From an uncultured Alistipes sp. (lineage in GTDB: Bacteria; Bacteroidota; Bacteroidia; Bacteroidales; Rikenellaceae), in the NCBI GenBank assembly GCA_949286165.1, contig CASDZK010000043.1, positions 1-64,000 of the forward strand: 64,000 bases of DNA, written 5' to 3'. The notes under the pieces are model-generated. The model worked only from the letters and a program-made list of their open reading frames with translations. It did no database searches and was not told the origin of the DNA. A program made the translations under genes and the position numbers. This document shows, piece after piece, positions 8,755 through 46,911 of the stretch; positions within the stretch are counted from its first letter, which is position 1; every line of letters begins with the position of its first letter.

Positions 8755-8774
8755 AAATCCATCAATTTAACGCA

Positions 8775-9939: not shown

Positions 9940-9957
9940 ATTTTCATGGTTTTGCGA

Positions 9958-10155: not shown

Positions 10156-10159
10156 AAAT

Positions 10160-10654
10160 ATGGAAACTTTTCGAATCTGCGAACCGAACGGCTGCGTTGC
10201 CGACCTCTCCCGCATGGTCCGGGACCTCGGAAACCTGCTGGAACAACTGACGTCCTCTCCGGTACGGTTTACCGAAAACGAGTTGCAGGCGATGCTGTCC
10301 GACAAGAACAGCCGGCTTTTCCTGCTTTTTCTCGGGGAAAAAATCGTCGGCATGCTGACGTTAGCCCGTTACCGAACTCCCACGGGCGTCAAAATCTGGA
10401 TCGAAGACGTCGCGGTGGACCGCAATTTCAGAGGGAGGAAATTAGGCCGCCTACTGGTAGAACACGCAATAAAAAAGGCCCAGGCGTGGGGACCGGGGAG
10501 CTTGATGCTGACGTCGAACCCGTCCCGCATAGCGGCCAACCGGCTCTATTCGTCCGCCGGATTCACATTGAAACCGACCAACGTCTATAAAATGGACCTC
10601 CGGGAAACTACCGCCGGCCTTCCTGCCTCTCCGCCGGAAACGGAAATCCAGTAA
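10160..10654 (+). CDS. GNAT-family N-acetyltransferase
   Basis: This 164-residue protein has the GNAT core: the strand IWIEDVAVDRNFRGRKLGR containing the acetyl-CoA pyrophosphate loop RGRKLGR (Q/RxxGxG/A type), then LLVEHAIKKA and the C-terminal NPSRIAANRLYSSAGF block. The acceptor is unknown; candidates are amino acids, peptides or small amines in the cytoplasm. I chose the ATG at 10160 because the frame open from 10091 is only a Lys/Arg repeat encoded by a tandem DNA repeat. No operon partner lies near; a dispersed repeat follows at 10675. Confidence 0.88.
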   Translation: METFRICEPNGCVADLSRMVRDLGNLLEQLTSSPVRFTENELQAMLSDKNSRLFLLFLGEKIVGMLTLARYRTPTGVKIWIEDVAVDRNFRGRKLGRLLVEHAIKKAQAWGPGSLMLTSNPSRIAANRLYSSAGFTLKPTNVYKMDLRETTAGLPASPPETEIQ

Positions 10655-10674
10655 AATGCATGAGAGTATCGAAT

Positions 10675-10728
10675 AGCTCTCTTTCATATTTTACCGGCAA
10701 GTTGAAGTCAAAAAGGCTTCATCTGCTA
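10675..10728 (+). repeat. Dispersed repeat, copy A
   Basis: The core accggcaagtt followed by tcaaaaaggcttcatctgc matches copies near 34921-35015 (opposite strand) and 50568-50660. The flanking ctctttcat is also shared with the second copy. Function unknown. Confidence 0.6.
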
Positions 10729-10761
10729 TATGTTACTGCCTTCCAATTTTTTTCCGTCTAT

Positions 10762-12531: not shown

Positions 12532-12538
12532 ACGCCGG

Positions 12539-14398: not shown

Positions 14399-14422
14399 CG
14401 TTTTATTTTTTATACCATTATT

Positions 14423-16159: not shown

Positions 16160-16200
16160 CCGATTTTTCAATATTCGAGAAAAAACAAGGTTCTTCAGCA

Positions 16201-16208
16201 CAAAGATA
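16201..16208 (-). promoter_or_regulatory. SGNH operon promoter, -7 element
   Basis: The plus strand caaagata is TATCTTTG on the minus strand, about 42 bp ahead of the SGNH start. No clear -33 box is seen. Confidence 0.45.
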
Positions 16209-16558
16209 ATCTTTTATTCCAAATCGATTATCGGATCCTGTTCCGATTTTCGATTTGCGTCAGACAGATTCAGCCGGTCTTTTCCAAGAGCATGGCAACC
16301 CGCGTCGAAGGAAAAGCCGATAAAAGATACCGGTTAATCAAAAATGTCCACGGATAGCCTCACGACCGTCCGAATCCGGCAAAAAACGCCTCTCCGCCCA
16401 ATAAAAGAACCGTTCCACAAGACCTATTTATTTCTGGAAATGCTTTACGACAATCCGGTCGTTTTCGTCACTCCGACAAACGGAGGTAAGGCTTGCATAT
16501 CCAATCGTGTAAAATATTCGATTTTAAGAAGAAAAGAGCGGGATATCGCTTTTTTTTA

Positions 16559-16566
16559 TACTTTTG
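16559..16566 (+). promoter_or_regulatory. ileS promoter, -7 element
   Basis: TACTTTTG matches TAnnTTTG 27 bp ahead of the ileS ATG. The -33 region is A/T-rich without a clear TTTG. Confidence 0.5.
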
Positions 16567-16592
16567 CAATTTGATAAAACCAAGCGATAAAT

Positions 16593-32747: not shown

Positions 32748-34304
32748 ATGGAAACGAGAATACTTTGGGTAGACGATGAAATCGAACTGCTGAGGCCCCA
32801 TATCCTGTTTTTGGAAAACAAAGGCTACCGAATCGACACGAGCAACAACGGCTACGACGCCATTGAAACCATCGGCTCCAAAAAATACGACCTGATCATT
32901 CTCGACGAGATGATGCCGGGACTGACCGGTCTGGAAACCCTCTCGCGGATCAAGGAGCTGGAACCCGGAACGCCCGTCGTGATGGTTACGAAAAGCGAAG
33001 AGGAGGACATCATGAACAAGGCGGTAGGCTCCAAAATCGCCGATTACCTCATCAAGCCGGTCAATCCCAACCAAGTGCTGCTTTCCATCAAAAAAAACGT
33101 ACACAAACAACAGCTGGTCTCGGAAAAAAGCACGGCCGATTACCGGGCCGAATTTTCGGCGATCTCCAACTCCTTTTCCGAAGCCCGCTCGTTCAACGAC
33201 TGGGTAAACATCTACAAAAAGCTCGTGACGTGGGAGCTGGAATTGAACGAATTGTCGGACACCGGCATCAAGGAGATCCTGTTTTACCAGAAAAACGAAG
33301 CGAACAACGAGTTTGCCAAATTCATCCGGAACAATTATACGAACTGGTTCAAGGACAAGAGCCTCGACAAGCCGGTGCTCTCGCATACGCTGATGCGGAA
33401 CAAGGTTTTTCCCATCGTGGACAAAAACCGGAAAACGACGTTTCTGCTGATCGATAATTTCCGTTTCGACCAGTGGCGCACCATCCGGCCGATGCTGCAC
33501 GGCGTATTCGACGTCCGGAGCGAAGATTTCTACTGCAGCATCCTTCCCACCGCCACCCAATACGCCCGTAACGCCCTTTTCGCGGGCCTGACTCCGCTGG
33601 CCATCGAGAAAATCATGCCGGGCCTGTGGCTCAACGACAACGAAGAAGGCGGCAAAAACCGGTACGAAGAGGATTTCCTGCGCCGGCAACTGCAATCGTT
33701 AGGCAAAAATTACAAACTCTATTTCGAAAAACTGGTCCGTTCCGAAGCGGGGAAGAAACTGCTCGACAACCTCGAAAAAGTGCATAATGCGGATTTCTCA
33801 GTCATCGTGTTCAACTTCTTGGACATCCTGTCGCACGCCCGCACCGATACCGAGATCATCCGGGAACTGGCGGAAGACGAAGCGGCTTTCCGTTCCCTGA
33901 CAGCCTCGTGGTTCGAACATTCGGACTTATGGGCCATCATGCGCGAGCTGGCGGCCCGCCGGCACACCGTCATCGTTACCTCCGACCATGGAACCGTCCA
34001 TGTCGATAATCCCATCAAAATACAGGGCGACAAGGAAACGTCGGTCAATCTGCGTTACAAAACGGGGAAAAATCTGAATTACAACACGAAACAACTGTTC
34101 GTCGTCTCCGATCCGGCCCAGATACACCTGCCCAAAAGCAACCTCTCCTCCTCTTACGTGTTCGCCTGCAACAACGACTTCCTCGTCTATCCGAACAACT
34201 ACAACCATTATGTAAGGTATTACCGGAACACTTTCCAGCACGGCGGCATCTCGATGGAAGAGATGATCGTCCCGTTCATCGTCCTCGATCCCAAAACAGC
34301 CTGA
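32748..34304 (+). CDS. porX: PorX, response regulator with PglZ domain
   Basis: This 518-residue protein has an N-terminal receiver domain (acid pair D9-D10, phospho-acceptor Asp53 in LIILDEMMPG, Lys86 in MVTKSEE). A helical linker follows, then a PglZ/alkaline-phosphatase-like domain from about residue 215 with LLIDNFRFDQWR, IVFNFLDILSHART and VTSDHGTVHVDNP metal-site stretches. In Porphyromonas, PorX with PorY and the sigma factor SigP controls the type IX secretion system. The protein matches that architecture from end to end. It diverges from the NarL-type pair; porY is not in the window. Its presence with gldH implies the strain has type IX secretion or its relics. Confidence 0.93.
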   Translation: METRILWVDDEIELLRPHILFLENKGYRIDTSNNGYDAIETIGSKKYDLIILDEMMPGLTGLETLSRIKELEPGTPVVMVTKSEEEDIMNKAVGSKIADYLIKPVNPNQVLLSIKKNVHKQQLVSEKSTADYRAEFSAISNSFSEARSFNDWVNIYKKLVTWELELNELSDTGIKEILFYQKNEANNEFAKFIRNNYTNWFKDKSLDKPVLSHTLMRNKVFPIVDKNRKTTFLLIDNFRFDQWRTIRPMLHGVFDVRSEDFYCSILPTATQYARNALFAGLTPLAIEKIMPGLWLNDNEEGGKNRYEEDFLRRQLQSLGKNYKLYFEKLVRSEAGKKLLDNLEKVHNADFSVIVFNFLDILSHARTDTEIIRELAEDEAAFRSLTASWFEHSDLWAIMRELAARRHTVIVTSDHGTVHVDNPIKIQGDKETSVNLRYKTGKNLNYNTKQLFVVSDPAQIHLPKSNLSSSYVFACNNDFLVYPNNYNHYVRYYRNTFQHGGISMEEMIVPFIVLDPKTA

Positions 34305-34335
34305 TTTGCACGCACCGAATTATTTTGTAGTTTTG
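34305..34335 (+). promoter_or_regulatory. tsaE promoter
   Basis: TTTG (34305-34308), 19 bp and TAGTTTTG (34328-34335) match the Bacteroidota consensus fully. Because initiation should occur near 34342, the upstream start at 34338 is excluded and the ATG at 34362 is preferred. Confidence 0.75.
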
Positions 34336-34361
34336 CAATGCAACCGATTTCGCAACCAAGC

Positions 34362-34826
34362 ATGGAAAAAACGTTCACAGCCAAAGACACCGACGATCTG
34401 GAGGAGATAGCGGAAAAACTGATGATTCTGATCGACGACAGGGAAAACGACGGAGCCGATCCCTTCAACATCGTTCTCTTTTACGGTTCCATGGGAGCCG
34501 GCAAAACCACCCTCATCCGGGCCTTATGCAACGCCATGCACGTCACGGATCCCGTGACCAGCCCTACCTTCGCCCTGATCAACGAATACGGGACCGAATA
34601 CGGGCGGCGCATTTACCACTTCGACTTTTACCGGATCGAGTCGTTGGAAGAGGTGTTCGACCTGGGTTACGAAGAATATTTTTACAGTCCTGATTTGTCG
34701 CTGATCGAATGGCCCGAAAAAATCGAGCCGTTATTGCCCGATCCCTCCGACCGGTCGGTCCGGGTAGGGCGCATCGATATCGAGGTAAACTCCAAAGGAG
34801 ACCGCACCATCACTTTCCGAGGATAA
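34362..34826 (+). CDS. tsaE: tRNA threonylcarbamoyladenosine biosynthesis ATPase TsaE
   Basis: This 154-residue cytoplasmic ATPase powers the TsaB-TsaD-TsaE complex that installs t6A at position 37 of ANN-decoding tRNAs. It has a Walker A YGSMGAGKTTLIRALC, the switch-like SPTFALINEY, HFDFYRIES and LIEWPEKIEPLLP, all family hallmarks, and a normal length. The start at 34362 is set by the promoter. It is a single gene; a 440-bp gap with a dispersed repeat separates it from the sigma-factor cluster. Confidence 0.93.
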   Translation: MEKTFTAKDTDDLEEIAEKLMILIDDRENDGADPFNIVLFYGSMGAGKTTLIRALCNAMHVTDPVTSPTFALINEYGTEYGRRIYHFDFYRIESLEEVFDLGYEEYFYSPDLSLIEWPEKIEPLLPDPSDRSVRVGRIDIEVNSKGDRTITFRG

Positions 34827-35119: not shown

Positions 35120-35127
35120 TATATTTG
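35120..35127 (+). promoter_or_regulatory. Promoter of the sigma-like gene, -7 element
   Basis: TATATTTG matches TAnnTTTG, so the housekeeping sigma factor probably transcribes the regulator gene. The -33 region lacks a clear TTTG. The leader would be about 135 bases to the ATG at 35269. Confidence 0.5.
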
Positions 35128-35268: not shown

Positions 35269-36018
35269 ATGACTAACAACTTTCAAAAGATGCCGTTGCC
35301 CGTCCTGGTCCCCCTGCTGGGAAAAAATATCGATGCCGACAAAGCGTTCGCACGGCGCATAACCTGCAACGACACTCCTTACGTTTCATTTTTTCTGGAC
35401 GATTTCAGCAAACCGATATTACAATACATCGTTACCCGCATTCTGAAAAAAAACAAGGCGACGGAAGACTCCGTCCGGAATATTTTCGGAGATTACTACG
35501 ATTTCGTTTCCCCTCCGCTCGACGAAAAGACACGACAGCCCCGCTGGCATAAAATAGCTTTATATGCAGGCAAAAACAACGCCTGCCTGCGCACTTACGT
35601 GACGCAAATCAGCAGCCGGCACTTCTGCCGCATAAAAAAAAGACAGGAAAAAACGGAAAACAGCCGGACCGAACTGCTGGATTTTTTCGATTACGAGGCT
35701 CTATTACGATACGACACGGCCGAAGAAGCGACCGATCTTTCGGAATCTCCCGAATACCGGTTGGTCATGAAAGCGTTCGGCCGACTGAAGGAACGCGACC
35801 GGGAAGCATTGTACTATCTGGTCATGTGTAAAATGAATGGTCTGGAAGCCTTTGAAAAGCTGAAAAAACACCTGAATCCCGACGGAGGGAAAGCGGTCAT
35901 GGACAGCTGGGACAACAAACGGAAACAAACCGCCATGTCGTTGCTGAAAGGACGCGCTTTGGACCATATATGGAAAGAGATGCAAAAAATCGAAAAAGAA
36001 AGAACCCATGAAAAATAA
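35269..36018 (+). CDS. ECF-like RNA polymerase sigma factor
   Basis: This 249-residue protein has the two-part plan of extracytoplasmic-function sigma factors. The region-2-like part (about 35-120) includes FFLDDFSKPILQYIVTRIL, TEDSVRNIFGDYYDFV and the basic LRTYVTQISSRHFCRIKKRQ. The region-4-like part (about 170-235) includes EYRLVMKAFGRLKERDREAL and a helix-turn-helix candidate, FEKLKKHLN. It is longer than most ECF factors because of an acidic linker. I chose the ATG at 35269; an in-frame GTG at 35209 would add 20 residues. Its 3' end overlaps the next gene by 11 bp. Position at the head of the cluster suggests it controls the downstream genes. Confidence 0.7.
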   Translation: MTNNFQKMPLPVLVPLLGKNIDADKAFARRITCNDTPYVSFFLDDFSKPILQYIVTRILKKNKATEDSVRNIFGDYYDFVSPPLDEKTRQPRWHKIALYAGKNNACLRTYVTQISSRHFCRIKKRQEKTENSRTELLDFFDYEALLRYDTAEEATDLSESPEYRLVMKAFGRLKERDREALYYLVMCKMNGLEAFEKLKKHLNPDGGKAVMDSWDNKRKQTAMSLLKGRALDHIWKEMQKIEKERTHEK

Positions 36019-36298
36019 TAAGGAGATATCGGACGAACTGTTCGTCCAATACGTCAACAACGAATTGACGACGGAAGAGATGAAAGAGGTGGAAGCCGCC
36101 CTGATCGCCAACGGCGAATCGGAAGCCGTTTTTCACGCCGCTGTAGGCAATTACTACGCGATGAAAGAGTTAGCCGACGAATTATTGGGCAAGGACGAAG
36201 ACGAAACGGAAAACGCCTCCGTTCCGGAAACCGTCCGGCGCGACTTCGCCTTGACCGTCGATATGAACCGCCTTCCGCTGGCCGCGAAAAAAAAATAA
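36008..36298 (+). CDS. Small anti-sigma-like protein
   Basis: This 96-residue soluble protein has an N-terminal helical stretch, ELFVQYVNNELTTEEMKEVE, of the kind that opens anti-sigma factors, but no zinc-binding cysteines and no membrane helix. The C-terminal half is acidic, then ends in a basic tail. It overlaps the sigma-like gene by 11 bp, so the two are translationally coupled, the usual arrangement of a sigma factor and its inhibitor. The anti-sigma role is inferred from position and the N-terminal resemblance only; I do not recognise a named family. Confidence 0.55.
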   Translation: MKNNKEISDELFVQYVNNELTTEEMKEVEAALIANGESEAVFHAAVGNYYAMKELADELLGKDEDETENASVPETVRRDFALTVDMNRLPLAAKKK

Positions 36299-36327
36299 AA
36301 AAAAACTGCTATATCCGGAACCTCCGG

Positions 36328-36345
36328 GCCTCTATTAAGAAAAGC
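36328..36345 (+). promoter_or_regulatory. Shared box, copy 1, candidate sigma target
   Basis: gcctctattaagaaaagc lies 36 bp before the membrane-protein gene at 36382. Almost the same sequence (gcctctattgaagaaacc) is at 44337-44354, ahead of the second half of the cluster. It does not match the housekeeping TAnnTTTG form. Confidence 0.45.
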
Positions 36346-36381
36346 AACCTAATCATTTAATCAATCGTAAAACACACAACC

Positions 36382-37521
36382 ATGAAAAAATTCGATTTAA
36401 CCCCGGAAGAGGCACAGCAGGTAAAAACGATGACCGAAACCTTTCTGCAAACCGAAGACCCGTCGAAATCCATCAAAGAAAACATGATCGGTTTTTACGC
36501 GGCACAGTTCGACAATATCGCCCAGGAAGAGATTGAGACCACGGTGGACAAATTGATACAAGGGACCCGGACGCTTACCGAGACCTACGCCCAAGCGCTC
36601 CAGAACGAAGGATTCGATTACGCGGAAGCGTTGAACGAAAAATGCGAAGAGTTGTCGCTGAAGGAAAAATACGAATTGTACCTGAATTTTCTGGCAGCCT
36701 TGCGCACCATCGACTACGACAACGCGACCGGCACGGAAAACGTCAATGCGTCGTTCGAAGAGATCAAAGGCAAATTATTGACCGTCCATGAAGTCGTTAC
36801 GCCGGAAATGTGCGACAAACTGCTCGAAGAAATCGGCGAATCGCTCAACAACTCCACGTTCTTCGCGACCGGAAACCAAACGATCCGCCAATTGCTGGAC
36901 GCTGCGACCGAGGGGCAAACCGCCGTAAGCGACTATCTGAATGCCAACTACGACGACATGAAACTCAAACAGTACACCGCCCTGGCCACCTACATCGCCT
37001 TTCAAAAGGGGGAAATCCCTTCCATTCCTGCAGACACCCTGCCCGAAATCGTCGCTCTGGGCATAGCGGCAGGCATCGAACAGGAAAAAATCATCGAAGA
37101 CGTGAAATCCGGCAACAAAACGTTCGAAACGGCGGCTTTATGCCTCAAGATACTGGGCGGCGTAGCGCTCTTCTGCGCCTTGGGACTGCTCATGCTATAC
37201 GTTTTAGCCGTAGCACAGGGGGCCATCATTTCCTCCGTACTCGCGCTTTTCGGAACAAGTACCATCGCCATGATCGCCGCCGGAACCATCGGCATTCTGG
37301 TTGCCGTAGGCGTCTGTCCCTACATGGTGGAAGCGGGCGGATACGTCATGTCGAAAGCCGGAGAGATTTACGACCGGATTATCGCTTTCGTCGAAGAAAC
37401 CGCCTACCCCTGGGCAGCGGAAAAGATACGCCGTTTCGTCGCATTCATCAAACAAAAACTCAGCCGGCGGGAAATTGCCACGACCGAACCCGTACAAGTC
37501 GCCCGAACCGCCGCATTTTAA
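36382..37521 (+). CDS. Membrane protein of the sigma/Hsp70 cluster, function unknown
   Basis: This 379-residue protein has a largely helical, acidic N-terminal domain (1-250), with no signal peptide. Two or three hydrophobic helices follow (about 253-278 and 280-312), then a short amphipathic, basic C-terminal tail (FVAFIKQKLSRRE). The topology suggests a large cytoplasmic sensor or scaffold tethered to the inner membrane. I recognise no family. It is the first gene after the shared box at 36328 and lies 12 bp ahead of the metalloprotease-like gene, so it probably opens the main operon. Confidence 0.7.
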   Translation: MKKFDLTPEEAQQVKTMTETFLQTEDPSKSIKENMIGFYAAQFDNIAQEEIETTVDKLIQGTRTLTETYAQALQNEGFDYAEALNEKCEELSLKEKYELYLNFLAALRTIDYDNATGTENVNASFEEIKGKLLTVHEVVTPEMCDKLLEEIGESLNNSTFFATGNQTIRQLLDAATEGQTAVSDYLNANYDDMKLKQYTALATYIAFQKGEIPSIPADTLPEIVALGIAAGIEQEKIIEDVKSGNKTFETAALCLKILGGVALFCALGLLMLYVLAVAQGAIISSVLALFGTSTIAMIAAGTIGILVAVGVCPYMVEAGGYVMSKAGEIYDRIIAFVEETAYPWAAEKIRRFVAFIKQKLSRREIATTEPVQVARTAAF

Positions 37522-37533
37522 ACCGTACGGAAT

Positions 37534-38202
37534 ATGTTAGCCCTGACGAAATTAATCTGCAAGACGATAGCCTGGATAGCGAAAGCCGCCCGGGCTATCG
37601 TCGCCCGTTTCAGACGATGGAACGAAATCCGGAACCTCGAACGCGAACGCCTCCGGCAAAAGGGAGAATACATGCGTGTACTGCTCGATTCCGACGCCGT
37701 TTACCGACCGGAAGAGTGCGACCGGCAACTGATCGAGAAATGCAAAGCGCTGGTTTCGGAGTATTTCCCCCAAGGCGTCGAAGCGACGCTTCTCCCGCTT
37801 TCGCTCGAAGCCCGGGCGGAACTGGTCCGGAAATTCACACAGGCGGCGGCGGAAACGATGGAGGTACAGATCGACGACGTCGTCTTCTCGCACCAGATGA
37901 ACGGACAAGGGTTCTTCAATTACAACACCCGGTCCGTTACCCTCAACCTGGCCTACCTCTACGTGGACGAGCCGGCAGTGTTGCGCGACGTCATCAACAC
38001 CGTTTTCCACGAGTGCAAGCACGCGCGCCAGTACCGGGCCATTCTGGAAGGGGCGGACTACGGATACAGCACCGACCTGCTGCGGGAATGGGTCCGCAAC
38101 ATCAATTTATACATCCGTCCGGAAGAGTGCGACGAAGCCTACCTGAAACAGCCGATAGAGCTCGACGCCTTCGGATTCGCCGACAGTATCATCAAATGTT
38201 AA
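37534..38202 (+). CDS. HExxH metalloprotease-like protein
   Basis: This 222-residue protein contains VFHECKHARQY, an HExxH zinc motif with His159, Glu160 and His163 on a helix. A conserved-looking ELDAFGFADS near residue 209 could give the third ligand. The N-terminus is a basic amphipathic helix (residues 1-30) that could lie on the membrane. Single-domain HExxH proteins of this size include regulators that cleave repressors, such as ImmA/IrrE, but overall similarity to them is not visible. It lies 12 bp after the membrane-protein gene and 10 bp before the next. Proteolytic activity is inferred from the motif alone. Confidence 0.65.
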   Translation: MLALTKLICKTIAWIAKAARAIVARFRRWNEIRNLERERLRQKGEYMRVLLDSDAVYRPEECDRQLIEKCKALVSEYFPQGVEATLLPLSLEARAELVRKFTQAAAETMEVQIDDVVFSHQMNGQGFFNYNTRSVTLNLAYLYVDEPAVLRDVINTVFHECKHARQYRAILEGADYGYSTDLLREWVRNINLYIRPEECDEAYLKQPIELDAFGFADSIIKC

Positions 38203-38212
38203 AACGAACCGT

Positions 38213-38629
38213 ATGAAAATCATCAAATACAAAGACCTCCTCAACTACCTCATCGAGGAAGACGGACTAACCATTCCCGAAGCCCTGCGGACCATCCGCC
38301 GGATTCGGCAGCTGGATCCCCGGATCCTGAAAGGAATCGAAGCCTGGATCGACGGGGACACCCCCGACCTGGCTTTCGCCGGCGTTTCTTATGCCGATTT
38401 GGTCGAGACCGAAAAAATGCGGCCCGTCCGGGCCTTCCTGTTCCTGGACTGGCTCAGGCGGGAACCGGCCATAGCCACCGACTATCTATGCACGAAACTG
38501 AAAAAAGACTCCGTCGCCGAACTGGACGACGCCAACCGGACCTTGCTGGAAGAAGCGGCCCGCCGACTGCAAGCGGACCCGGACGAACCGGACCGGCCGG
38601 AAGACGAAACCGATATCCGTATCCCTTAA
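38213..38629 (+). CDS. Small helical protein of unknown function
   Basis: This 138-residue soluble protein is mostly alpha-helical and carries a strongly acidic tail (ADPDEPDRPEDETD). There is no signal peptide, membrane segment or catalytic motif. I do not recognise a family. It lies 10 bp after the HExxH gene and 16 bp before the AAA+ gene, within the same operon, so an adaptor or regulatory role for one of these neighbours is possible. Confidence 0.65.
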   Translation: MKIIKYKDLLNYLIEEDGLTIPEALRTIRRIRQLDPRILKGIEAWIDGDTPDLAFAGVSYADLVETEKMRPVRAFLFLDWLRREPAIATDYLCTKLKKDSVAELDDANRTLLEEAARRLQADPDEPDRPEDETDIRIP

Positions 38630-38645
38630 CCCTCAACGTCCCATC

Positions 38646-40565
38646 ATGAACTTCAAAGAGACCCAGGCGGGAAAAGTGGCCGAAGCCGTCAAACTGGCCT
38701 ACCTTTCGCATACGCCGTTCGTCCACATCGTCACGAACGAGCTGGAGCTGTGCAACCGCATATTCGACACGCGATTTTGCAGCATCATCCAGCCTTGCCG
38801 GATTCAGAACTCCGTAAAACAACTGTCGAACTACCAATATAAGAATACGTTCAAATTGACGGATTACGAGAAAATGCCGATTCTGAACGTCATCGTCACG
38901 CCTTCCGCCATCGACCCGAGCGACGCCCTCCAGTTCCTGAATCTTTACCTGAACCTGCCCCCGTCGTCCTATTCGGAAAAAACCTCCTATTCCGACACGG
39001 CTGTCGCCAACGCCCGGAAATCCCTCTGGGTAACCCTGTCGCCTTCCGCCGAAATCCCCAAAGAGATCGCGGCCTATACCCAACTGATATTCGCAGACCC
39101 CTTGTCGGACGAGGAGATCGCGGAAACCATCGGATCGGTGCTGGACGACTTCCGCATCCCCGCGGGAAACGGGGAACTCGTCAACCGGATGACCGTCAGT
39201 TTCCGAGGGTTCGGAAAAGGTAAGATACGGCAAGCTTTGGAAAAAATGATCGTGGCCGAATATCTGGGGAAAGAAGACGCCGACGAAGAAAAAATCTTCA
39301 AAATCATCCAGGCCGAAAAAAAACAACTGTTGGACAAAAGCGAAGGACTGCGTTGGGAAACTTATACCGACCAGGAAGCCTCCGGGCTGGCCGCCATTTC
39401 CGACTGGCTGGACGAACGGATCGATATCTTCAACGACATCGAACATGCGAGACGTCAGGGCATAGACGCACCCAAAGGGGTACTGATATCGGGCATTCCG
39501 GGGTCCGGAAAATCCCTGATGGCGAAATTCGCGGCTTCCAAGCTCGGCCTGCCCCTGATATCGATGGACATGGGCGCCTTGATGGGGGGCATCGTCGGTT
39601 CCAGCGAGCACAACATGATCGAGGCCCTGCGGATGGCGGAAACGATGGCTCCCTGCGTCCTCTGGATCGACGAGATAGAAAAGGCGTTTTCCGGAGCCAA
39701 AAGCAGCCAGTCGGACGGCGGCGTGGCCCAACGCATGTTCGGCCGCTTTCTAACCTGGATGCAGGAAAAAACCGCTGCCTGCTTCGTATTCGCCACCTCC
39801 AACGACATTACGGACCTGCCGTCCGAACTGTTTCGCAGCGAACGTTTCGACCGGAAATTCTATACTTTCATGCCTTCCGCCGCCGAATGCTGCGAAATCT
39901 TCGCCGGAAACATCCGATACCAGAACCGGGTATTCCGCAAGGAACAGGAGAAATCGGCTCCATTCGGCTCCCACGGTTTGAAACAGCTTTTTTCGACCCG
40001 TATGGAAGATCCGGCATTCTGGCTGCCGATTCTGGAAACGGCCTGCCTCCCGAACGGTTGCGAACTGGAACAGGACAAGAAAAACGGCGCCTGGAAATGG
40101 AAAGACAACCGCAAGCCCAAAAACAAATTGCTGACGGGCGCCGACATCAGCGTCATCCTGAAAGAAGCGAAATTCGCCGTATTCAAGCAACGCCTTACCC
40201 ACGAATCCAAAACCGCCGTGTACAGCGACCGGGCAATGGAACAGGCAGTCAGAAAAGTCGTCGCCGGCTTCAGTTCCTATGGAGAAACCAACCTGAAGAA
40301 TATCGTAAAATGTTTCCTGAAGCTGCATGAAAACGAATTCGATCCGGCTTCGGGCCGATGCATCATCGATTTCTCCCGTTACGACGACGACGATTTCATC
40401 TACCATTTTACCGAACAGGATACGGCGAACCTGAAATCCGAATACGACAAAGTACTGCTCAAAACCCTGACGGGCGCCATCAACCGTTACGCGGAAGATC
40501 TGGTTTGCGAAAACACGAACCGGACGCGGGTAGTAGTCGACGACCCTAAACAGAACACGTTATGA
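38646..40565 (+). CDS. Ycf46-like AAA+ ATPase
   Basis: This 639-residue ATPase has an N-terminal helical domain (1-240), then a AAA+ core with Walker A GIPGSGKS (283-290) and Walker B CVLWIDEIEKAF (337-348). Sensor-1 is FATSND with Asn386, and arginine-finger candidates lie in RSERFDRKF (397-405). The run WLDERIDIF, then PKGVLISGIPGSGKSLMAK, and the EALRMAETMAPCVLWIDEIEKAF stretch match the Ycf46 group of FtsH-like AAA proteins. The C-terminal 230 residues are an unrecognised helical region. It lacks an own protease site, so it may unfold substrates for the HExxH protein or remodel a complex with the Hsp70-like protein. Its last four bases overlap the next gene. Confidence 0.85.
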   Translation: MNFKETQAGKVAEAVKLAYLSHTPFVHIVTNELELCNRIFDTRFCSIIQPCRIQNSVKQLSNYQYKNTFKLTDYEKMPILNVIVTPSAIDPSDALQFLNLYLNLPPSSYSEKTSYSDTAVANARKSLWVTLSPSAEIPKEIAAYTQLIFADPLSDEEIAETIGSVLDDFRIPAGNGELVNRMTVSFRGFGKGKIRQALEKMIVAEYLGKEDADEEKIFKIIQAEKKQLLDKSEGLRWETYTDQEASGLAAISDWLDERIDIFNDIEHARRQGIDAPKGVLISGIPGSGKSLMAKFAASKLGLPLISMDMGALMGGIVGSSEHNMIEALRMAETMAPCVLWIDEIEKAFSGAKSSQSDGGVAQRMFGRFLTWMQEKTAACFVFATSNDITDLPSELFRSERFDRKFYTFMPSAAECCEIFAGNIRYQNRVFRKEQEKSAPFGSHGLKQLFSTRMEDPAFWLPILETACLPNGCELEQDKKNGAWKWKDNRKPKNKLLTGADISVILKEAKFAVFKQRLTHESKTAVYSDRAMEQAVRKVVAGFSSYGETNLKNIVKCFLKLHENEFDPASGRCIIDFSRYDDDDFIYHFTEQDTANLKSEYDKVLLKTLTGAINRYAEDLVCENTNRTRVVVDDPKQNTL

Positions 40566-41602
40566 AACTGAACGATACCCTGATTACCTCCCCCGACGAT
40601 TTTGCCCGTCATTTTTCGTTTGTCGAATTCTGGATCAAGCACGATCTGTTTCTCCGCGACCTGAATCCCGAACGGATTTTCTACGCGACCGACCGGCAAC
40701 GGCAGCTTTACAAAGTAGTGGAAGCCTGGCTGAAAACGGAAGAAAGCGAAACGCCGGAACCTCCGACATACGTATTCGACGAAACGGCCCGGGCCATCAT
40801 CCGGACAACCGTTTCCGAACCGGACGAAGCCCCCTGCACACTGCCGGTACAGATAAACGGCGACGCCGTTCCCGCAATGAAATCAGTTACCGGGACGAAC
40901 GCCGCCCGGACGGCCGGCATCCTGGCCCTGTACGAATTAGCGGAAAAACCGTTAGACATAACCGATTTGAAAACCGCCTTCGCCGAAGTCGATCTCGACT
41001 CGGACGAAATTATCCTGCAAGCCGGCATTACCAAGAACTTTCCGTCCGACCTGTCGAAAATTCGGGGGAAACTGACCCTGAAAAAAATCCGCATTTGCGG
41101 CACAAGCCCTTTGGAAACGCGCATCCTTTTCAACGGGAAAGAGGCCGGCACACTGAAATCCGGCGAATGCGCCTACGTCACGGCAGCCAACGGGCAGTTC
41201 ATCGAATTGCTGGACCACCGGCTGGAAAACGAACGGTATTGCCTGAACCTGCGCTGCGCCGAAAACGGAAAGACCTATTTAGAAATCTACGACAAGAAAC
41301 AGGAGCGGGTGGAACGGCAGGAAGATATTACCTCGTTCGCGCTGGCGGGCAATGAAGACTACGTATATCTGTACAAAAAGAAAATCAGAAGCACCCGGGC
41401 CGATTCCGACAAGCTTTACTATCTGCTGGACTTAGGCGACGAACCGCTGTACATCAAATCGGCCGGCCGGCATTTTATCGTCCTGCTGAACGACGGCACG
41501 GTAAAATCCACCGACAAAACCTGCGAAAGGCACGGCGTATTTTCGACGCGCGTTACCCCGAACGGAAAAATCGAATATAACGACAAACGACATGGAAAAT
41601 AA
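40562..41602 (+). CDS. Beta-rich protein of unknown function
   Basis: This 346-residue protein has a helical N-terminal part (about 1-60), then predicted beta segments with a PEGA-like repeat flavour (RILFNGKEAGTLKSGECAYV, EIYDKKQERVERQEDI). The C-terminal strands (YLYKKKIRST, FIVLLNDGTVKS) look like blades of a small propeller. There is no signal peptide. It overlaps the AAA+ gene by four bases and the next gene by 11 bp, so all three are translationally coupled. I do not recognise a family; a substrate-recognition partner is possible by position only. Confidence 0.65.
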   Translation: MKLNDTLITSPDDFARHFSFVEFWIKHDLFLRDLNPERIFYATDRQRQLYKVVEAWLKTEESETPEPPTYVFDETARAIIRTTVSEPDEAPCTLPVQINGDAVPAMKSVTGTNAARTAGILALYELAEKPLDITDLKTAFAEVDLDSDEIILQAGITKNFPSDLSKIRGKLTLKKIRICGTSPLETRILFNGKEAGTLKSGECAYVTAANGQFIELLDHRLENERYCLNLRCAENGKTYLEIYDKKQERVERQEDITSFALAGNEDYVYLYKKKIRSTRADSDKLYYLLDLGDEPLYIKSAGRHFIVLLNDGTVKSTDKTCERHGVFSTRVTPNGKIEYNDKRHGK

Positions 41603-42386
41603 AGAAAATTACGAAAAACAGATCGAACAACTGCTGGCCCGGCAAGGAACGGCCGACGAATTGCAGAACCTTTGCCGCAACATAGCCTGCGAAGCGTTGA
41701 ACAGGCTGTACGGCATGTCGGAAGAAAAGAAACGGGCCGCCCTGCGGTTATGCCGGGAATACCATTTCCACATCCGGGAAAAAGCCGGCGCCGCACCGGC
41801 CGCCTCTTCCCCCTCGTTCCTGCAATACGCAGGCGTCGTTGCGGCCGTTACAGGCATGGCATTGCTGACCTATTGGGACGTTTCCACAGGAAAAGCCTGC
41901 CTGATCGGCCTGGTCATAGGCATAGTCGTCCACTATTTTTCGACCGGGAGACAGATACCCGCCGAACACCGGACGAAGGAACACGGACGGATAGAAACGA
42001 CCGCGAACGAACTGGTCCGGCAAATCGAAACGCTGTTGTCCGTCTTGGAAACCCTGGCCCGAACGGAACAAACCGAAGACGAAGAGACCTACCCGTTAGA
42101 CGGCAAATACCGGGACATTCTCGCTTTCCTGAACAACTCCTACATGGACTGCCTGGGATTCGGAGAAGAATGCGCCCTCTTTTTCCGGAAACAGATCAAA
42201 AAAATCCTGGCCGTTTCCGGATACGAGCTGCTCGACTATTCTCCCGAAGAGGCGGACCGTTTCGATACGGATTACGCCAACGGGATCGACCAGCCCGACA
42301 TCGCCGAATACGCCATCCGCAACAAAAAGACGGACCGGACCGTAGTGAAAGGAAAAGTTTTCCTGCCGAACAGCAAACAACAGTAA
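41592..42386 (+). CDS. Membrane protein with GrpE-like C-terminal domain
   Basis: This 264-residue protein has a helical N-terminus, two adjacent membrane helices (about 77-95 and 100-117), a long helix from 125 to 160, and a C-terminal domain. That domain runs from a helix near 170-210 into GYELLDYSPEEADRFD and ends with VVKGKVFLPN. It resembles the end of GrpE, the nucleotide-exchange factor of Hsp70: a long helix, then a beta head with a KGY-like terminal strand. The next gene encodes an Hsp70-like ATPase, which strengthens the reading. It would be a membrane-anchored exchange factor; this is inference. Confidence 0.6.
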   Translation: MENKENYEKQIEQLLARQGTADELQNLCRNIACEALNRLYGMSEEKKRAALRLCREYHFHIREKAGAAPAASSPSFLQYAGVVAAVTGMALLTYWDVSTGKACLIGLVIGIVVHYFSTGRQIPAEHRTKEHGRIETTANELVRQIETLLSVLETLARTEQTEDEETYPLDGKYRDILAFLNNSYMDCLGFGEECALFFRKQIKKILAVSGYELLDYSPEEADRFDTDYANGIDQPDIAEYAIRNKKTDRTVVKGKVFLPNSKQQ

Positions 42387-42419
42387 TTCCTGCAAACAAC
42401 ATATCCCAAAACCGAAATC

Positions 42420-44243
42420 ATGAAGATACAATACCTGATCGGCGGAGACTTCGGCCACGGCGAAACAACCATTTCCAAATTCGACCTGGCTAAAGGTATT
42501 CTGCAACACGAACCCATCGTAAAATCAAGCAAAGACGAAGAAAAAAAAGTCATATCGGCCATCTGTAAAGACCGGCAGTCGGGCCGGTGGAAATTCGTAC
42601 TCAACGAAAGCGATTACGTCAATCCTTACCTGAACGCCTGTCTCAAGGGCCGCATATCGGAAATAAAGGACGACCCCGAACGCGTAGAAGCTTTCAAAGC
42701 GTTCATCGGACTGGTATTCGACGCCATTTTGGATAACGACAACGATCTGACATACAACCCCGAAACGGGAGAAAAGAATTTCATGTTCTTCATCGCCTGC
42801 CCTTCCGGATGGGAGGAGAAGGACCACAACGCCCCCAAGGAATATATCGAGTTTTTCAGGCAGGTCCTTCCGGCGGAATGGGTCATCAAAGAGTCGGACG
42901 CCGCATTCTTCAAATTCAAGGAACAATATGCGGGACAAACCGTCCTGATTATCGACATCGGTTCCAGCACCATCGACTTCACGGCCTACGGCGACGACCG
43001 TCTGATCTGTTCCTTCGGAGCCAACGAAGGCGCCCATCAAGTGGAACGGACCCTTCTCGAATACATCGAAGAGACCGAAGAAACGCATCCGGAAGCCTAT
43101 ATGGAAGTAAAACAATGGAACGAGGCCCACGGCAACGCCCGGATTCGAATCCGTCAGGGAGAAGAACTGTATATCCGGGAACAGAAAGAAAACTTCCATA
43201 CCTACGAGAAAGATTGCATCGATCTAAGCCTGCGCTGCCATCAACTGGCTCCCTTGTTCCCGAACAAAACCAAACGCCTGCTCGATTACACCTATTCCCG
43301 GCAGGAGTTCGACAAGATTATCGGCACCTACAAACAAAATCTCCGCAAAGCCTTGCTCGAAGCCAAACAACGGCTGGTTTCGAAAGGTTTTACCCCCGAT
43401 ACCGTCATCCTTTCGGGAGGCGCTTCCCGTATGACCTTCATTGAGGAGATGCTGCGGGAAATTTTCCCGTCTTCCAACATAGAGACGGACGGCCACCCGG
43501 AATACGTAGTTTCCGACGGCATCGTGGAATACGCCAAAGTATATGTCCTGTGCGAAGAATCCATCCGTAAACTGTTCGAAGAGTTTTGCTCCTGGGCGGA
43601 CTGTCCGGACCATTCCCTGAAAAATCCGCCTAAAACCGTCTTAGCCCAAAAAATCAAACGTTCGATCGAGTCGGCCATGGACGCAGGGGACGCGGAACTG
43701 CTGCAAAAAGAACTGACCGTGCGGTACGTGGACCCGGAACCGACGCCCGAAGCGGACCGGACGGCTTTCAAATACCTGTACGACACGGCCGACGACATTA
43801 TCGCGCATTTCAGCGACTTTGCGGAAAAGTTCAGCGACATCGTGAACGGCATACTGAACCGGGACCTGAACGACTACTTTTCGGACAAAATCAAGGAGCT
43901 GATCCGTACCCACTACAAGAAAGAAATCGACATCAGATTTTCGGTCGATATCGACCTGTCCGACTTTATCAAAACGCTGAGATTTACCCTCTCGAAACCC
44001 ATGAAGAATCTGGGCTGGACAGGATGGTTCTACTTCAAGGACCGGGATATTTCCAGAAACAGGGAGGTCCGGAAAGAAGCGGCCGAACATCTGGTCAAAG
44101 AGTACAAGTCCTATTTTGAAGGATGGACGGTCAATTTGGGCGAAAACACCATGCAACAAATCATCGACCAGATAAAAACCGCCGTCCACGACAAAATCCG
44201 GCAGACTGTATCGGAGAACGAGCTGTTCAAACTGACCAAATAA
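42420..44243 (+). CDS. Hsp70-like ATPase with a non-canonical C-terminus
   Basis: This 607-residue protein has the actin/Hsp70 ATPase fold. Phosphate-1 is IGGDFGHGETTISKFD (7-22), phosphate-2 is LIIDIGSSTIDFTAYG (176-191), and the adenosine loop is VILSGGASRM (329-338), followed by SDGIVEYAKV. The N-terminal 380 residues are therefore a full nucleotide-binding domain. The remaining 225 residues are helical and show no similarity to the beta-sandwich substrate-binding domain of DnaK. No DnaJ with an HPD motif is in the window; the GrpE-like gene is just upstream. It ends before an intrinsic terminator at 44266, so it closes the main operon. Confidence 0.85.
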   Translation: MKIQYLIGGDFGHGETTISKFDLAKGILQHEPIVKSSKDEEKKVISAICKDRQSGRWKFVLNESDYVNPYLNACLKGRISEIKDDPERVEAFKAFIGLVFDAILDNDNDLTYNPETGEKNFMFFIACPSGWEEKDHNAPKEYIEFFRQVLPAEWVIKESDAAFFKFKEQYAGQTVLIIDIGSSTIDFTAYGDDRLICSFGANEGAHQVERTLLEYIEETEETHPEAYMEVKQWNEAHGNARIRIRQGEELYIREQKENFHTYEKDCIDLSLRCHQLAPLFPNKTKRLLDYTYSRQEFDKIIGTYKQNLRKALLEAKQRLVSKGFTPDTVILSGGASRMTFIEEMLREIFPSSNIETDGHPEYVVSDGIVEYAKVYVLCEESIRKLFEEFCSWADCPDHSLKNPPKTVLAQKIKRSIESAMDAGDAELLQKELTVRYVDPEPTPEADRTAFKYLYDTADDIIAHFSDFAEKFSDIVNGILNRDLNDYFSDKIKELIRTHYKKEIDIRFSVDIDLSDFIKTLRFTLSKPMKNLGWTGWFYFKDRDISRNREVRKEAAEHLVKEYKSYFEGWTVNLGENTMQQIIDQIKTAVHDKIRQTVSENELFKLTK

Positions 44244-44265
44244 AAAGCCTGCACGGCCGGCCCCC

Positions 44266-44305
44266 ATGCGGAACAACGAAAAAAACGGTTGTCCCGCATT
44301 TTTTT
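44266..44305 (+). terminator. Intrinsic terminator after the Hsp70-like gene
   Basis: The arms atgcggaacaac (44266-44277) and gttgtcccgcat (44288-44299) pair with one mismatch and run directly into seven T residues. It splits the cluster into two transcription units. Confidence 0.85.
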
Positions 44306-44336
44306 CGTCGTTCGGGATAGATCGGTCCTCTCGTCC

Positions 44337-44354
44337 GCCTCTATTGAAGAAACC
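44337..44354 (+). promoter_or_regulatory. Shared box, copy 2, candidate sigma target
   Basis: gcctctattgaagaaacc is nearly the same as 36328-36345. It lies 32 bp after the terminator's T-run and 17 bp before the DUF1232 gene, in the right place for a promoter of the second half of the cluster. Confidence 0.45.
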
Positions 44355-44371
44355 GCTAAAATATTCTCATC

Positions 44372-44743
44372 ATGAAAAAGCACGTTACCGACGGTTCTCC
44401 GATCTGGGGAAAAATTCCGGGAAAAATCGGCGAATATGCCGGAAAAATCGGACGGGCGAGTACGCGCCCCCTCCTTCTTCTGTATTACGTCCTGCAAAGT
44501 CCCGACACACCGAAACAGGACAAGCTCCTGATTCTCTCCGCCCTGTCGTACCTGATTCTCCCTGTCGATCTGATTTCGGCCAGACGGCTGCCGGTTATCG
44601 GCTGGATCGACGAAATCATCGCCTTGGGAACCGCCTACCGAAAAGCCCGCCGATACGTTACCCCGGCCATGGAGGCGAAAGCCGACAAGGTATTGAACCA
44701 ATGGTTTCCCGAATATGCGGAATATGGAACGCTCCCCGAATAA
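44372..44743 (+). CDS. DUF1232 (YkvA-like) protein
   Basis: This 123-residue protein contains the DUF1232 signature: LILSALSYLILPVDLIS followed by LPVIGWIDEIIALGTAYR, a hydrophobic hairpin found in small membrane-associated proteins of unknown function across bacteria. It opens the second transcription unit of the cluster, after the terminator at 44266 and the shared box at 44337. It overlaps the next gene by about 20 bp. Members often sit beside stress or defence genes, but no biochemical role is established. Confidence 0.82.
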   Translation: MKKHVTDGSPIWGKIPGKIGEYAGKIGRASTRPLLLLYYVLQSPDTPKQDKLLILSALSYLILPVDLISARRLPVIGWIDEIIALGTAYRKARRYVTPAMEAKADKVLNQWFPEYAEYGTLPE

Positions 44744-45266
44744 CGACCGCCTCGAATGGTTAAACCGGGAAGTCGGCTACGTTCTCCGGGGAACGGCTGC
44801 CGGAACCGTATTCGAAGGCGAAACATGGGTAAACGAACTGCTGGCAGCCCCTGCTTACGACAATGTCGTGCGTATCATAGCCCGAAGGTTCGAAGGCCGT
44901 TTTTCATTTGCATGGCCGGGCCTGTTATGCCAGACCGGCCGGGCCTCATGGGACGAAAAATACGGATTGATGGCTCTGTTCAATCGCGGAACCCACCGGA
45001 TGTACATGCCGGTAAACGCCCGCCAACTCAGCGACTCCCGATGGGCAAAATATCCGCAGGAACGTTTGCGCCTGCTGAAACGGGGAAGCCTGTTGGCATA
45101 CCTGTCCCGCATGCCAGACGGGCAAATCGAGCTTCTCCACCGCTTCCGGAAACCGGCCAACGGGAACCAGGAAGACGACGAACCGGAAATATGGATGCAA
45201 GGCATTTACGACAAGCGGGGGCACCTGACGGCCCCGTTCGCATTGGAAGAAATCGAATCCTGCTAA
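44724..45266 (+). CDS. Protein of unknown function
   Basis: This 180-residue protein starts at the ATG at 44724 (MERSPNNDRLEWL), three codons inside the longest frame. It is rich in Arg and aromatic residues, with segments such as AWPGLLCQTGRASWDEKYG and RGTHRMYMPVNARQL that look like beta strands of a compact globular domain. The tail is acidic. There is no signal peptide or membrane helix and I recognise no family. It overlaps the DUF1232 gene and precedes the FtsZ-C-like gene by 49 bp. Confidence 0.65.
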   Translation: MERSPNNDRLEWLNREVGYVLRGTAAGTVFEGETWVNELLAAPAYDNVVRIIARRFEGRFSFAWPGLLCQTGRASWDEKYGLMALFNRGTHRMYMPVNARQLSDSRWAKYPQERLRLLKRGSLLAYLSRMPDGQIELLHRFRKPANGNQEDDEPEIWMQGIYDKRGHLTAPFALEEIESC

Positions 45267-45315
45267 CGCCAACGGCGACGGCATAACCGACCATCTTTGA
45301 AAAACACCGAATATC

Positions 45316-45738
45316 ATGAAAAAAATAACTCCGAAAGAGGCAATGGACCTCCTGTGCCCAGACCGAAACACCCAAGGCATCGATACCGGCGACTTACGGC
45401 TGCTTTTCGCCGACAACTGCGAAATACGGGCAAACACCGTTTCCACGGTTGAAAAAGCCGGCGATCCGGACCGTCCCGGAAGAATCCGCCATCTGCTGCA
45501 CGAACAAGCCGAGGCATTCGCCCCGTACTTTACGACGGCCCGAAGCGCGGTCGTCATGATAGAGACCGCCGGCTCTTTCCCGTTGATGATGCATGAAATG
45601 CAGTTTTTTTCCGAATTTTTCGAAAAATTCTCCCCGGCAACGAACATCCGATGGGCCGTAAAAACCGTCGACACGGAAGAGTTCGCACTTAAAATACATG
45701 TCGCCGTGGCCAATGAAGAAAAACAGCCGCAACCATGA
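45316..45738 (+). CDS. Small protein resembling the FtsZ C-terminal domain
   Basis: This 140-residue protein has a C-terminal half (about 74-133) reading ARSAVVMIETAGSFPL, then a helix with FFSEFFEKFS and strands NIRWAVKTVD and ALKIHVAVAN. The order strand, loop with small residues, helix, strand, charged loop, strand is that of the FtsZ/tubulin C-terminal domain, where the family reads like INITGG, then IIFG, then VRVTVIA. The GTPase domain is absent. If correct, it might bind FtsZ or a relative as an inhibitor, but this is inference from pattern. It overlaps the next gene by four bases. Confidence 0.5.
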   Translation: MKKITPKEAMDLLCPDRNTQGIDTGDLRLLFADNCEIRANTVSTVEKAGDPDRPGRIRHLLHEQAEAFAPYFTTARSAVVMIETAGSFPLMMHEMQFFSEFFEKFSPATNIRWAVKTVDTEEFALKIHVAVANEEKQPQP

Positions 45739-46076
45739 AACGAACGGTACATAGCCTCTGTCTGCACGCCTGTTCCAAAAACGATACCGGCACGGACGTC
45801 ACGGCCTATATCGAAAACGGCATTCTTTCGGTCGTTCGGACGGACTGGGGAGGAATAGCCTACGATTACGCCAGCGACGGAGAAATCGAAAGTTCCCTGT
45901 TTTTCGACCCGGTTCATACCGCTAAACTGGCCAACAGTCTGCAAGCCCAAGGAGACCGCATGCTGCTCGAAAAGCTCCTGAAACGCTTCGGCCGGTACGG
46001 ATCGTCCGCCCCGGACGAAATCCGCCGGTATTGCGACAAGAAAGGCATCGCCTATACGACATACATACATTACTGA
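45735..46076 (+). CDS. Small protein of unknown function, last of the cluster
   Basis: This 113-residue protein overlaps the FtsZ-C-like gene by four bases (ATGA type), so it is translated with it. It seems to have beta strands in the first half (DVTAYIENGILSVVR, IAYDYASDGEIESSLFF) and helices in the second (LLEKLLKRFG). No family is recognised. It ends the run of thirteen plus-strand genes; a weak hairpin follows at 46080-46100 without a T-run. Confidence 0.65.
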   Translation: MKRTVHSLCLHACSKNDTGTDVTAYIENGILSVVRTDWGGIAYDYASDGEIESSLFFDPVHTAKLANSLQAQGDRMLLEKLLKRFGRYGSSAPDEIRRYCDKKGIAYTTYIHY

Positions 46077-46691: not shown

Positions 46692-46911
46692 TGCCTATGG
46701 CGTAACAGGAATAATTAAGGCAATAAAATATAAAAAGCGTTAGCTTTTATTCTTGTCTCTGAAACTTCGACAATTTCAAGACCTAACAGGAGTAAAGCGT
46801 AAACGCTCATGGCAACGTGGGCTTTACTCATTTATTTGTTAGGCAGGTAGTCGAAGACCTCAGAGACGGATAATAAAGTATTGTCCCACGTCTTTTTTAT
46901 ATCCATAGGCA
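46692..46911 (+). ncRNA. Structured rod-shaped RNA candidate
   Basis: Seven nested complementary segments fold this region into one long rod. They are 46692-46700/46903-46911 (tgcctatgg/ccataggca), 46728-46737/46892-46902, 46744-46751/46872-46878, 46755-46761/46861-46867, 46765-46771/46850-46856, 46782-46788/46837-46843 and 46790-46798/46821-46829. The loop bases 46815-46820 can also pair with 46886-46891 as a pseudoknot. A -7 element precedes it and a T-run (46893-46898) lies near its end. A rod with internal bubbles resembles 6S RNA, but no family is confirmed; a folded mobile repeat or a leader of the 46952 gene are alternatives. Confidence 0.5.

Follow-up and report, generated by a model that had tools for sequence, protein, structure and literature searches.

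Introduction

GTPase-centred (GAP1-N2) systems, described as predicted conflict systems, combine an HSP70 with GrpE, and a subset of them carries an extra HSP70 without the peptide-binding domain (Kaur et al., 2020; PMC7159879). Here we describe a block of genes from an uncultured Alistipes sp. that appears to join an Hsp70-type ATPase and a GrpE-like partner to a putative sigma factor and an AAA+ ATPase. The block lies in a 64,000-nt stretch of contig CASDZK010000043.1 (the window), where the plus-strand open reading frames (ORFs) g1 to g13 occupy positions 35269-46076. An earlier note on this DNA had proposed all thirteen as one functional unit; we find that g1-g9 recur together in other species of the Bacteroidales.

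The Hsp70 cycle needs nucleotide exchange, which in bacteria is provided by GrpE. AAA+ ATPases of the Cdc48 class pull proteins apart, and IetAS is an anti-phage system consisting of an AAA+ ATPase and a subtilisin-like protease. Extracytoplasmic function (ECF) sigma factors are held by anti-sigma factors, many of which are membrane-bound, and are released by conformational change or proteolysis.

A nine-gene block recurs in other Bacteroidales

All thirteen ORFs were found intact and on the plus strand, as the earlier note had stated. The tight packing that it described was largely seen as well, with overlaps at 5 of the 12 junctions and gaps of 10-128 bp at the other 7, although the overlaps span 4-29 bp and not the 4-20 bp claimed. 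Only g6 (AAA) and g10 (DUF1232) scored above the Pfam cut-off among the 13 proteins. The first nine genes are as follows.

35269..36018, plus strand, g1: ECF-like sigma factor, 249 aa
36008..36298, plus strand, g2: putative anti-sigma-like domain, from its position after the sigma factor gene, 96 aa
36382..37521, plus strand, g3: 379 aa with two C-terminal hydrophobic segments, likely the membrane half of the anti-sigma
37534..38202, plus strand, g4: HExxH zincin-like protein, 222 aa
38213..38629, plus strand, g5: small partner of g4, 138 aa, directly 3' of the HExxH gene in 18 of 18 locus occurrences
38646..40565, plus strand, g6: classical-clade AAA+ ATPase, 639 aa (Pfam AAA, E 7e-27)
40562..41602, plus strand, g7: fast-evolving protein encoded beside the AAA+ gene, 346 aa
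41592..42386, plus strand, g8: predicted membrane protein whose C-terminal fold is GrpE-like, 264 aa
42420..44243, plus strand, g9: Hsp70-type ATPase, predicted to be without the usual substrate-binding sandwich, 607 aa

The identities that the earlier note had given to the sigma factor, the HExxH protein, the AAA+ ATPase, the Hsp70-like ATPase and the DUF1232 protein all held up, while those of the anti-sigma genes and of g8 stood in part, as detailed below.

A protein search with g9 returned 410 relatives, and a first genome scan with g9 alone gave no locus. We then scanned 84,980 genomes (one per species) for two peptide patterns that are conserved among 38 aligned relatives; this gave 31 loci, a lower bound. 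The ORFs of the loci carrying g9 relatives (given L-numbers) were clustered, and because the search had started from the Hsp70 alone, the neighbours constitute independent evidence of a unit.

Two architectures were seen. In type I, the order on a single strand is sigma factor, anti-sigma-like/membrane protein, an optional HExxH gene with g5, AAA+ ATPase, g7, g8 and Hsp70. This arrangement was found in the window and in L003-L007, which come from two uncultured Bacteroidales, a Bacteroidaceae, a Rikenellaceae and a Candidatus Parabacteroides, with the sigma-like gene heading the block in the window and in all five relatives. Departures from the order of the window were few: L004 has no g3, and L003 and L006 have no g4-g5. 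The HExxH gene is optional, being absent in 2 of the 5 type I relatives, so that the combination of unfoldase and protease that the earlier note had pointed to is not the invariant core. Gaps between the mechanically called ORFs of L003-L007 ranged from -68 to +83 bp, except for one of 344 bp in L005, which holds a g2-like ORF, and orthologues of the type I genes share only 22-45% identity. The predicted recurrence of the neighbours in other Bacteroidota was thus borne out: five further genomes of the Bacteroidales keep the order and strand of the window, apart from the missing g3 or g4-g5, and the orthologues were not found scattered in unrelated neighbourhoods. That g1-g9 exist as a nine-gene unit is, in our view, almost certain.

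Type II, seen in 24 of the 31 loci and in L065, has the order g8, Hsp70 and a HerA-like ATPase of ~900 aa, often followed by an HExxH gene (19/24), g5 (14/24), a small protein and sometimes DUF1232. The HerA-like ATPase of L013, the one examined, matched Pfam DUF87, scored well with the HerA-type models of PADLOC and contains hydrophobic sequence by hydropathy. A sigma-like gene (family C13) lies upstream in 4 of the 24 loci, several contigs ending inside the locus, and L028 carries a second HExxH-g5-AAA+ set in addition to type II. In L024 (14796-16459), L012 (14758-17622) and L008 (7090-8758), MORN-repeat and radical-SAM genes lie near the HExxH gene, 3' of the HerA-like ATPase; the radical-SAM protein of L024 scores with the viperin (pVip) models of PADLOC (E 2e-12).

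Comparison of distance matrices, by permutations that leave shared ancestry uncorrected, gave a correlation of r 0.87 between Hsp70 and g8 (n 30, P 0.001), and similar values for Hsp70 and HerA (r 0.78, n 24), g8 and HerA (r 0.88, n 24) and HExxH and g5 (r 0.84, n 18). Within type II, the correlation of Hsp70 with HExxH was weak (r 0.31, P 0.008) and that with g5 was not significant (r 0.17, P 0.2). Because the distances of g8, Hsp70 and HerA are correlated while those of Hsp70 with the HExxH protein and g5 are weakly or not significantly so, the invariant core consists of g8, the Hsp70 and an exchangeable ATPase, with HExxH-g5 as a cassette that is exchanged more freely.

Outside these two architectures, L029 (Spirochaetaceae) and L033 (Clostridia) contain Hsp70-like relatives without g8. 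The Spirochaetaceae contig has three Hsp70-like ATPase genes in one cluster (7447-17380), and a 392-aa gene of L033 that had been considered g7-like was rejected, as the g7 profile does not find it.

The Hsp70-type ATPase and its predicted membrane partner

The match of g9 to Hsp70 in Pfam is below threshold. However, an AlphaFold2 model of the protein (pLDDT 87) gave Hsp70-family nucleotide-binding domains in all of the 50 best-listed rows with Foldseek, and in all but one of the 50 best-listed rows with VIA-align, the exception being titled by its complex, with 326-348 residues aligned. The residues D10, K76, E158, D179, T184, G333, G334 and R337 are invariant in 38 of 38 aligned relatives; we take these to be catalytic and adenosine-site residues from the corresponding positions of DnaK/Hsc70. 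The first five are kept in 28 of the 30 proteins of the window and the loci, the exceptions being a split gene in L030 and an X in L032. Taken together, the fold of the model and the conserved active site leave us in almost no doubt that g9 is an Hsp70-type ATPase. Its phosphate loop contains GxDFGHGET, invariant in the 38 aligned sequences, which on that alignment is a signature of the family.

Residues 396-607 of g9 are nearly all helical in the model (block pLDDT 55-93), and no beta-sandwich substrate-binding domain was seen there. The HPD motif of J-domains was found neither in the 13 window proteins nor in the ORFs of the module in L003-L007, which leaves room for a J partner elsewhere in the genome.

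The gene for g8 adjoins the Hsp70 gene on its upstream side in 29 of the 31 loci, including L030 with its split Hsp70 gene, and also in L065. The protein contains hydrophobic sequence by hydropathy, in line with the membrane protein with a GrpE-like end described in the earlier note. The likeness of its C-terminus to GrpE, which is a helical bundle with a beta head, comes from fold comparison and is borderline. No GrpE was present among the best 50 rows listed by Foldseek, and GrpE identity by sequence was rejected, since hhalign against 25 GrpE proteins gave 0.75% for the full length and 0.67% for the C-terminal domain. The fold and the gene pairing make g8 a probable GrpE-like partner of g9. 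The genome also has a separate canonical GrpE gene adjoining a DnaJ-like ORF, because of which g8 and g9 look like a dedicated second Hsp70-GrpE pair.

The ECF-like sigma factor and candidate anti-sigma genes

No sigma model (Sigma70) of Pfam matched g1 above the cut-off, and a match to FliA region 4 was weak (E 0.013). When g1 and its orthologues (n=6) were aligned by hhalign to 12 ECF sigma factors of relatives, a match with a probability of 96.4% was obtained (E 1.2e-9; 175 columns, profile positions 25-246), extending over sigma regions 2 and 4. Seven control pairs, in which other families were set against the sigma set or g1, all scored <1%, whereas the type II family C13 matched the ECF set at 98.3%. 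It is very likely, from these profiles, that g1 is a sigma factor.

The case for an anti-sigma factor is less direct. A match of g2 to zf-HC2 was weak (E 0.06), no profile match of g2 or g3 to anti-sigma factors was found, and PADLOC gave a weak match of g3 to PDC-S32 (E 0.001). Hydrophobic segments of g3 lie at residues 257-275 and 294-312, and members of the g3 cluster are present in 4 of the 5 type I relatives, with a shorter N-terminal extension in L006. In L003 and L007, the g2-like domain and the g3-like membrane part form a single ORF, the g3 half of L007 being linked solely via its cluster. Because of this fusion, we lean towards g2/g3 as a membrane anti-sigma.

The HExxH protein, the AAA+ ATPase and their partners

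All 23 proteins of the g4 cluster in the loci have the HExxH motif, and 22 of them have HExxH...QxxExxA. There was no match of g4 to M78 in Pfam, and comparison with Peptidase_M78 by hhalign gave a moderate match (64%, E 6.5e-5, 68 columns). In two Bacteroides loci, the HExxH domain lies within a far larger protein (571 aa, L013 14575-16290; 566 aa, L030 14622-16322). That of L013 has a weak match to uracil-DNA-glycosylase (E 0.08) and is possibly effector-like.

Comparison of g6 with Cdc48/AFG2-type chains gave E values down to 4e-33. Walker motifs are present, with Walker A found in 7 of 7 relatives, and g6 is, to judge by these motifs, an intact AAA+ ATPase. Its N-terminal half presumably resembles Ycf46. 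The adjacent g7 shares only 27-28% identity with its orthologues in the five type I relatives, and a protein search with the single sequence found itself and one near-identical fragment, and nothing else.

Distribution of the module

By our reading of the matches, just two (G000 and G383) of 393 genomes from the order have real members of the g9 family. An apparent wide distribution (90/393 genomes) was rejected, as 87 of the best matches were of ≤30 bits within model positions 177-390 and represent generic DnaK. A match of 46 bits in G052 is an 830-aa Hsp70 in another context, and the second match of another g9 search (18.8 bits) was likewise dropped. The g8 family was found at E 1e-6 in 1 of 395 genomes across the phylum, its own. 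No relative was seen in viral contigs by an alignment-based scan, and a plasmid search gave one distant match, on a Calothrix plasmid among genes mostly annotated 'hypothetical protein'.

A genome of the same genus (G001) has no g9 match. Its matching site carries TsaE beside a PorX-like protein (96% identical), a convergent ORF 21 bp later and then a GcvT-like gene, and no module. Because few genomes carry the g9 family, and because G001 and its matching site are without the module, g1-g9 is an accessory module.

Borders of the unit and neighbouring genes

The remaining features of the region are as follows.

35120..35127, plus strand: TAnnTTTG box TATATTTG, matching the -7 promoter box of Bacteroidota, 141 bp before g1
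44266..44305, plus strand: terminator-like hairpin between g9 and g10, with 11/12 stem positions paired, a 10-nt loop and a T tract
44372..44743, plus strand, g10: DUF1232 protein beyond the hairpin, 123 aa (Pfam DUF1232, E 1.8e-9)
44715-45266, 45316-45738 and 45735-46076, plus strand, g11-g13: small proteins not conserved with the module

A search for hairpins followed by a T tract found 3 sites in the window (both strands together), compared with 0 in 15 Markov-1 controls of 64 kb (one strand each). The folding energy of the hairpin at 44266-44305 is ordinary (z -1.2, with 27 of 200 shuffles folding equally well). A looser terminator scan of the window gave terminator-like sites at chance level, with a loop limit of 8 that misses the 10-nt loop of this hairpin. 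No such hairpin was found 3' of the Hsp70 gene in L003-L007, and it is thus known from the window alone; in L003-L006 the next mapped ORF after the Hsp70 gene lies on the opposite strand. Since the hairpin separates g9 from g10, a single transcript of g1-g13 is unlikely. No homologues of g11-g13 were detected in the 31 loci (E 1e-3), and g11 has none in 60 other genomes of the family (1/61, its own genome alone). The thirteen-gene extent given in the earlier note could hence not be maintained, and its idea of one functional unit applies to g1-g9, which recur together in 5 other species, and not to g11-g13.

For g10, which contains hydrophobic sequence by hydropathy, the situation is different. 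A DUF1232 gene was found in 7 of the 60 genomes examined from the order, g10 being the copy of the window, and g10-like genes lie ≤9 kb downstream of the Hsp70 gene in 5 of 25 type II loci (L010, L012, L013, L024 and L030), with the full 9 kb in view in only about half of the 25. By our arithmetic, which takes its two counts from different searches, ~0.01 would be expected by chance. Because of this excess, g10 is probably part of the wider system although the hairpin sets it apart.

The 'shared boxes' of the earlier note found no support as regulatory elements, as 40 of the 41 direct repeat copies lie inside ORFs. TAnnTTTG, which we take to be the -7 consensus of Bacteroidota promoters, has a single plus-strand copy in the stretch from 34.4 to 49.2 kb, located before g1, while its count across the window (28) and a promoter scan of the window are at chance level. 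A box was present ≤300 bp from the sigma gene in L003, L004 and L006, at differing distances, and not in L005 and L007, and visual inspection of the sequence before the sigma gene revealed no motif common to the six type I loci.

To the left of the module lie genes at 32748-34826 that we take from their sequence to be a PorX-like response regulator and TsaE. In a same-genus genome (L097 764-3191) a GcvT-like gene is found near TsaE, and in the window an ORF that looks GcvT-like by eye occupies 324-1469. As the order of the GcvT-like gene after TsaE (34826 in the window) differs from that of the same-genus genome, the module sits at a rearrangement point. On the right, the presumably OmpA-like gene at 46952 was looked for in 4 relatives without a match, a negative that has no control. 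Directly upstream of it, the region 46740-46900 has a much better folding energy than its shuffles (z -5.7, with 0 of 200 equal), forming a long hairpin and then a smaller one (46755-46885), and matched no Rfam family at the gathering score. Further on, at 48265-50388, a 133-aa lipoprotein-like ORF ends at ~48666 and a long ORF begins at 48937, which looks like one surface protein gene that is broken or split.

Discussion

We propose that g1-g9 encode a protein-remodelling machine tethered to the membrane, whose engagement likely releases the sigma factor, and put the probability of this reading at about 0.42. In this scheme, g1 would be held at the inner membrane by g2/g3. The cytosolic GrpE-like end of g8 is predicted, from the folds and the invariant residues, to dock on g9 and, at the membrane, to reset its ATP cycle. 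The helical tail of g9 would then act as a switch or tether and not as a general chaperone clamp. The pairing of the genes suggests that g6, with g7 as an adaptor, may pull on or disassemble a client, a task that would fall to the HerA-like ATPase in type II. The g4-g5 cassette, where present, could cut the exposed client or the anti-sigma, and g1, once free, would induce its own operon. Sequence does not distinguish whether such a machine senses stress or phage.

An anti-phage or anti-mobile-element system, in which the Hsp70 and the AAA+ (or HerA) ATPase would be a threshold sensor of invader protein at the membrane, with the metallopeptidase and variable neighbours as effectors, is the main rival because HSP70 and GrpE, in a subset joined by an extra HSP70 without the peptide-binding domain, also occur in the GTPase-centred systems, which are predicted conflict systems (Kaur et al., 2020; PMC7159879). 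The patchy, accessory distribution of the module, the fast divergence of g7 and g8, and the variable genes of type II, such as the L024 radical-SAM gene with its viperin matches and the weak uracil-DNA-glycosylase match fused to the HExxH domain in L013, are consistent with this possibility. On the other hand, PADLOC identified no system and no system-specific component; the good matches were those of g6 and the L013 ATPase to AAA (IetA) and HerA-type models, apart from the viperin models on the one neighbour in L024. In the flanks of the loci, of which 133 of 190 ORFs were scanned without a control set, each PADLOC name at E 1e-10 fell on one ORF only (4 names among 25 of 59 families listed, and 7 in the other half). 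Viral contigs held no relative and plasmids only the distant match, and to our knowledge ECF sigma control is unusual in defence systems. We regard the anti-phage role as a real possibility, although it is the less probable of the two.

An export or assembly motor of the envelope, with g9/g8 and g6 (or the HerA-type ATPase of type II) moving protein or DNA through the membrane or inserting it there, appears improbable. Mitochondrial import is driven in a comparable way by a membrane-tethered Hsp70 with GrpE, HerA-like ATPases occupy the place of the type I AAA+ gene, and hydrophobic segments are found in g8, g3 and the L013 ATPase. However, the hydropathy scan gave only one or two such segments per protein, and Pfam matched no channel, secretin, relaxase or recognizable cargo in the conserved genes. 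A plain accessory quality-control operon beside an ordinary sigma/anti-sigma pair, with no signalling link, is more doubtful still: the chaperone core can exist without a sigma factor, as C13 was seen in just 4 of the 24 type II loci (some contigs ending just upstream), but in the window and all five type I relatives the first gene of the block is sigma-like.

If the sigma-releasing machine is real, Hsp70-GrpE, known as a general folding machine, would have been turned into a dedicated membrane signalling device with a sigma factor and exchangeable ATPase motors, and an undescribed accessory system would be added to the Bacteroidales, where much of stress and phage biology is uncharted. A bolder form of the proposal, which we consider rather unlikely, is a new class of membrane sensor in which a clamp-less Hsp70 cycled by a membrane-anchored GrpE is the switch, and invaders or envelope damage would drive Hsp70-AAA+ (or Hsp70-HerA) to dismantle the anti-sigma complex and start an immune-like programme, in two versions with interchangeable motors across the Bacteroidales. 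The defined gene set, the GxDFGHGET signature and the two architectures are now open to tests.

The view that no described system has this make-up agrees with our searches: no named system matched, and no description was found in titles and abstracts of the open literature, preprints and papers outside open PMC not being covered. Individual components resemble known proteins to varying extents. The nucleotide-binding fold and active-site residues of g9 are those of DnaK, while its model has no substrate-binding sandwich and the block no J-domain motif. The C-terminal fold of g8 is similar, at a borderline level, to that of GrpE, but the GrpE-like part sits behind a hydrophobic segment and is not recognizable by sequence. 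Like ImmA/IrrE (Peptidase_M78), g4 has HExxH and a later glutamate in QxxExxA; unlike these, the g4-type proteins of L004, L005 and L007 carry an N-terminal hydrophobic segment. The AAA domain of g6 scores with IetA models of PADLOC (E 8.6e-17, via the AAA region alone) and with NCBIfam IteA (57 bits, cut-off 510), but scores similarly with Cdc48, PAN and FtsH models, all far under the curated cut-offs, and no serine or subtilisin-like protease was matched by Pfam or PADLOC among the 13 proteins. The L013 ATPase is similar along residues 239-869 to the serine-rich protein NF033849 of NCBIfam (E 3e-18), yet its 64.6 bits fall short of the cut-off of 650. The module gave no match to a GTPase, tubulin, vWA, FNIII or DnaJ, and no GTPase family was matched among the 13 window proteins. 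The GAP1-N2 systems are alike in placing HSP70 and GrpE within an NTPase system (Kaur et al., 2020; PMC7159879), whereas the module described here has instead an AAA+ or HerA ATPase, a sigma-like factor and an HExxH protein.

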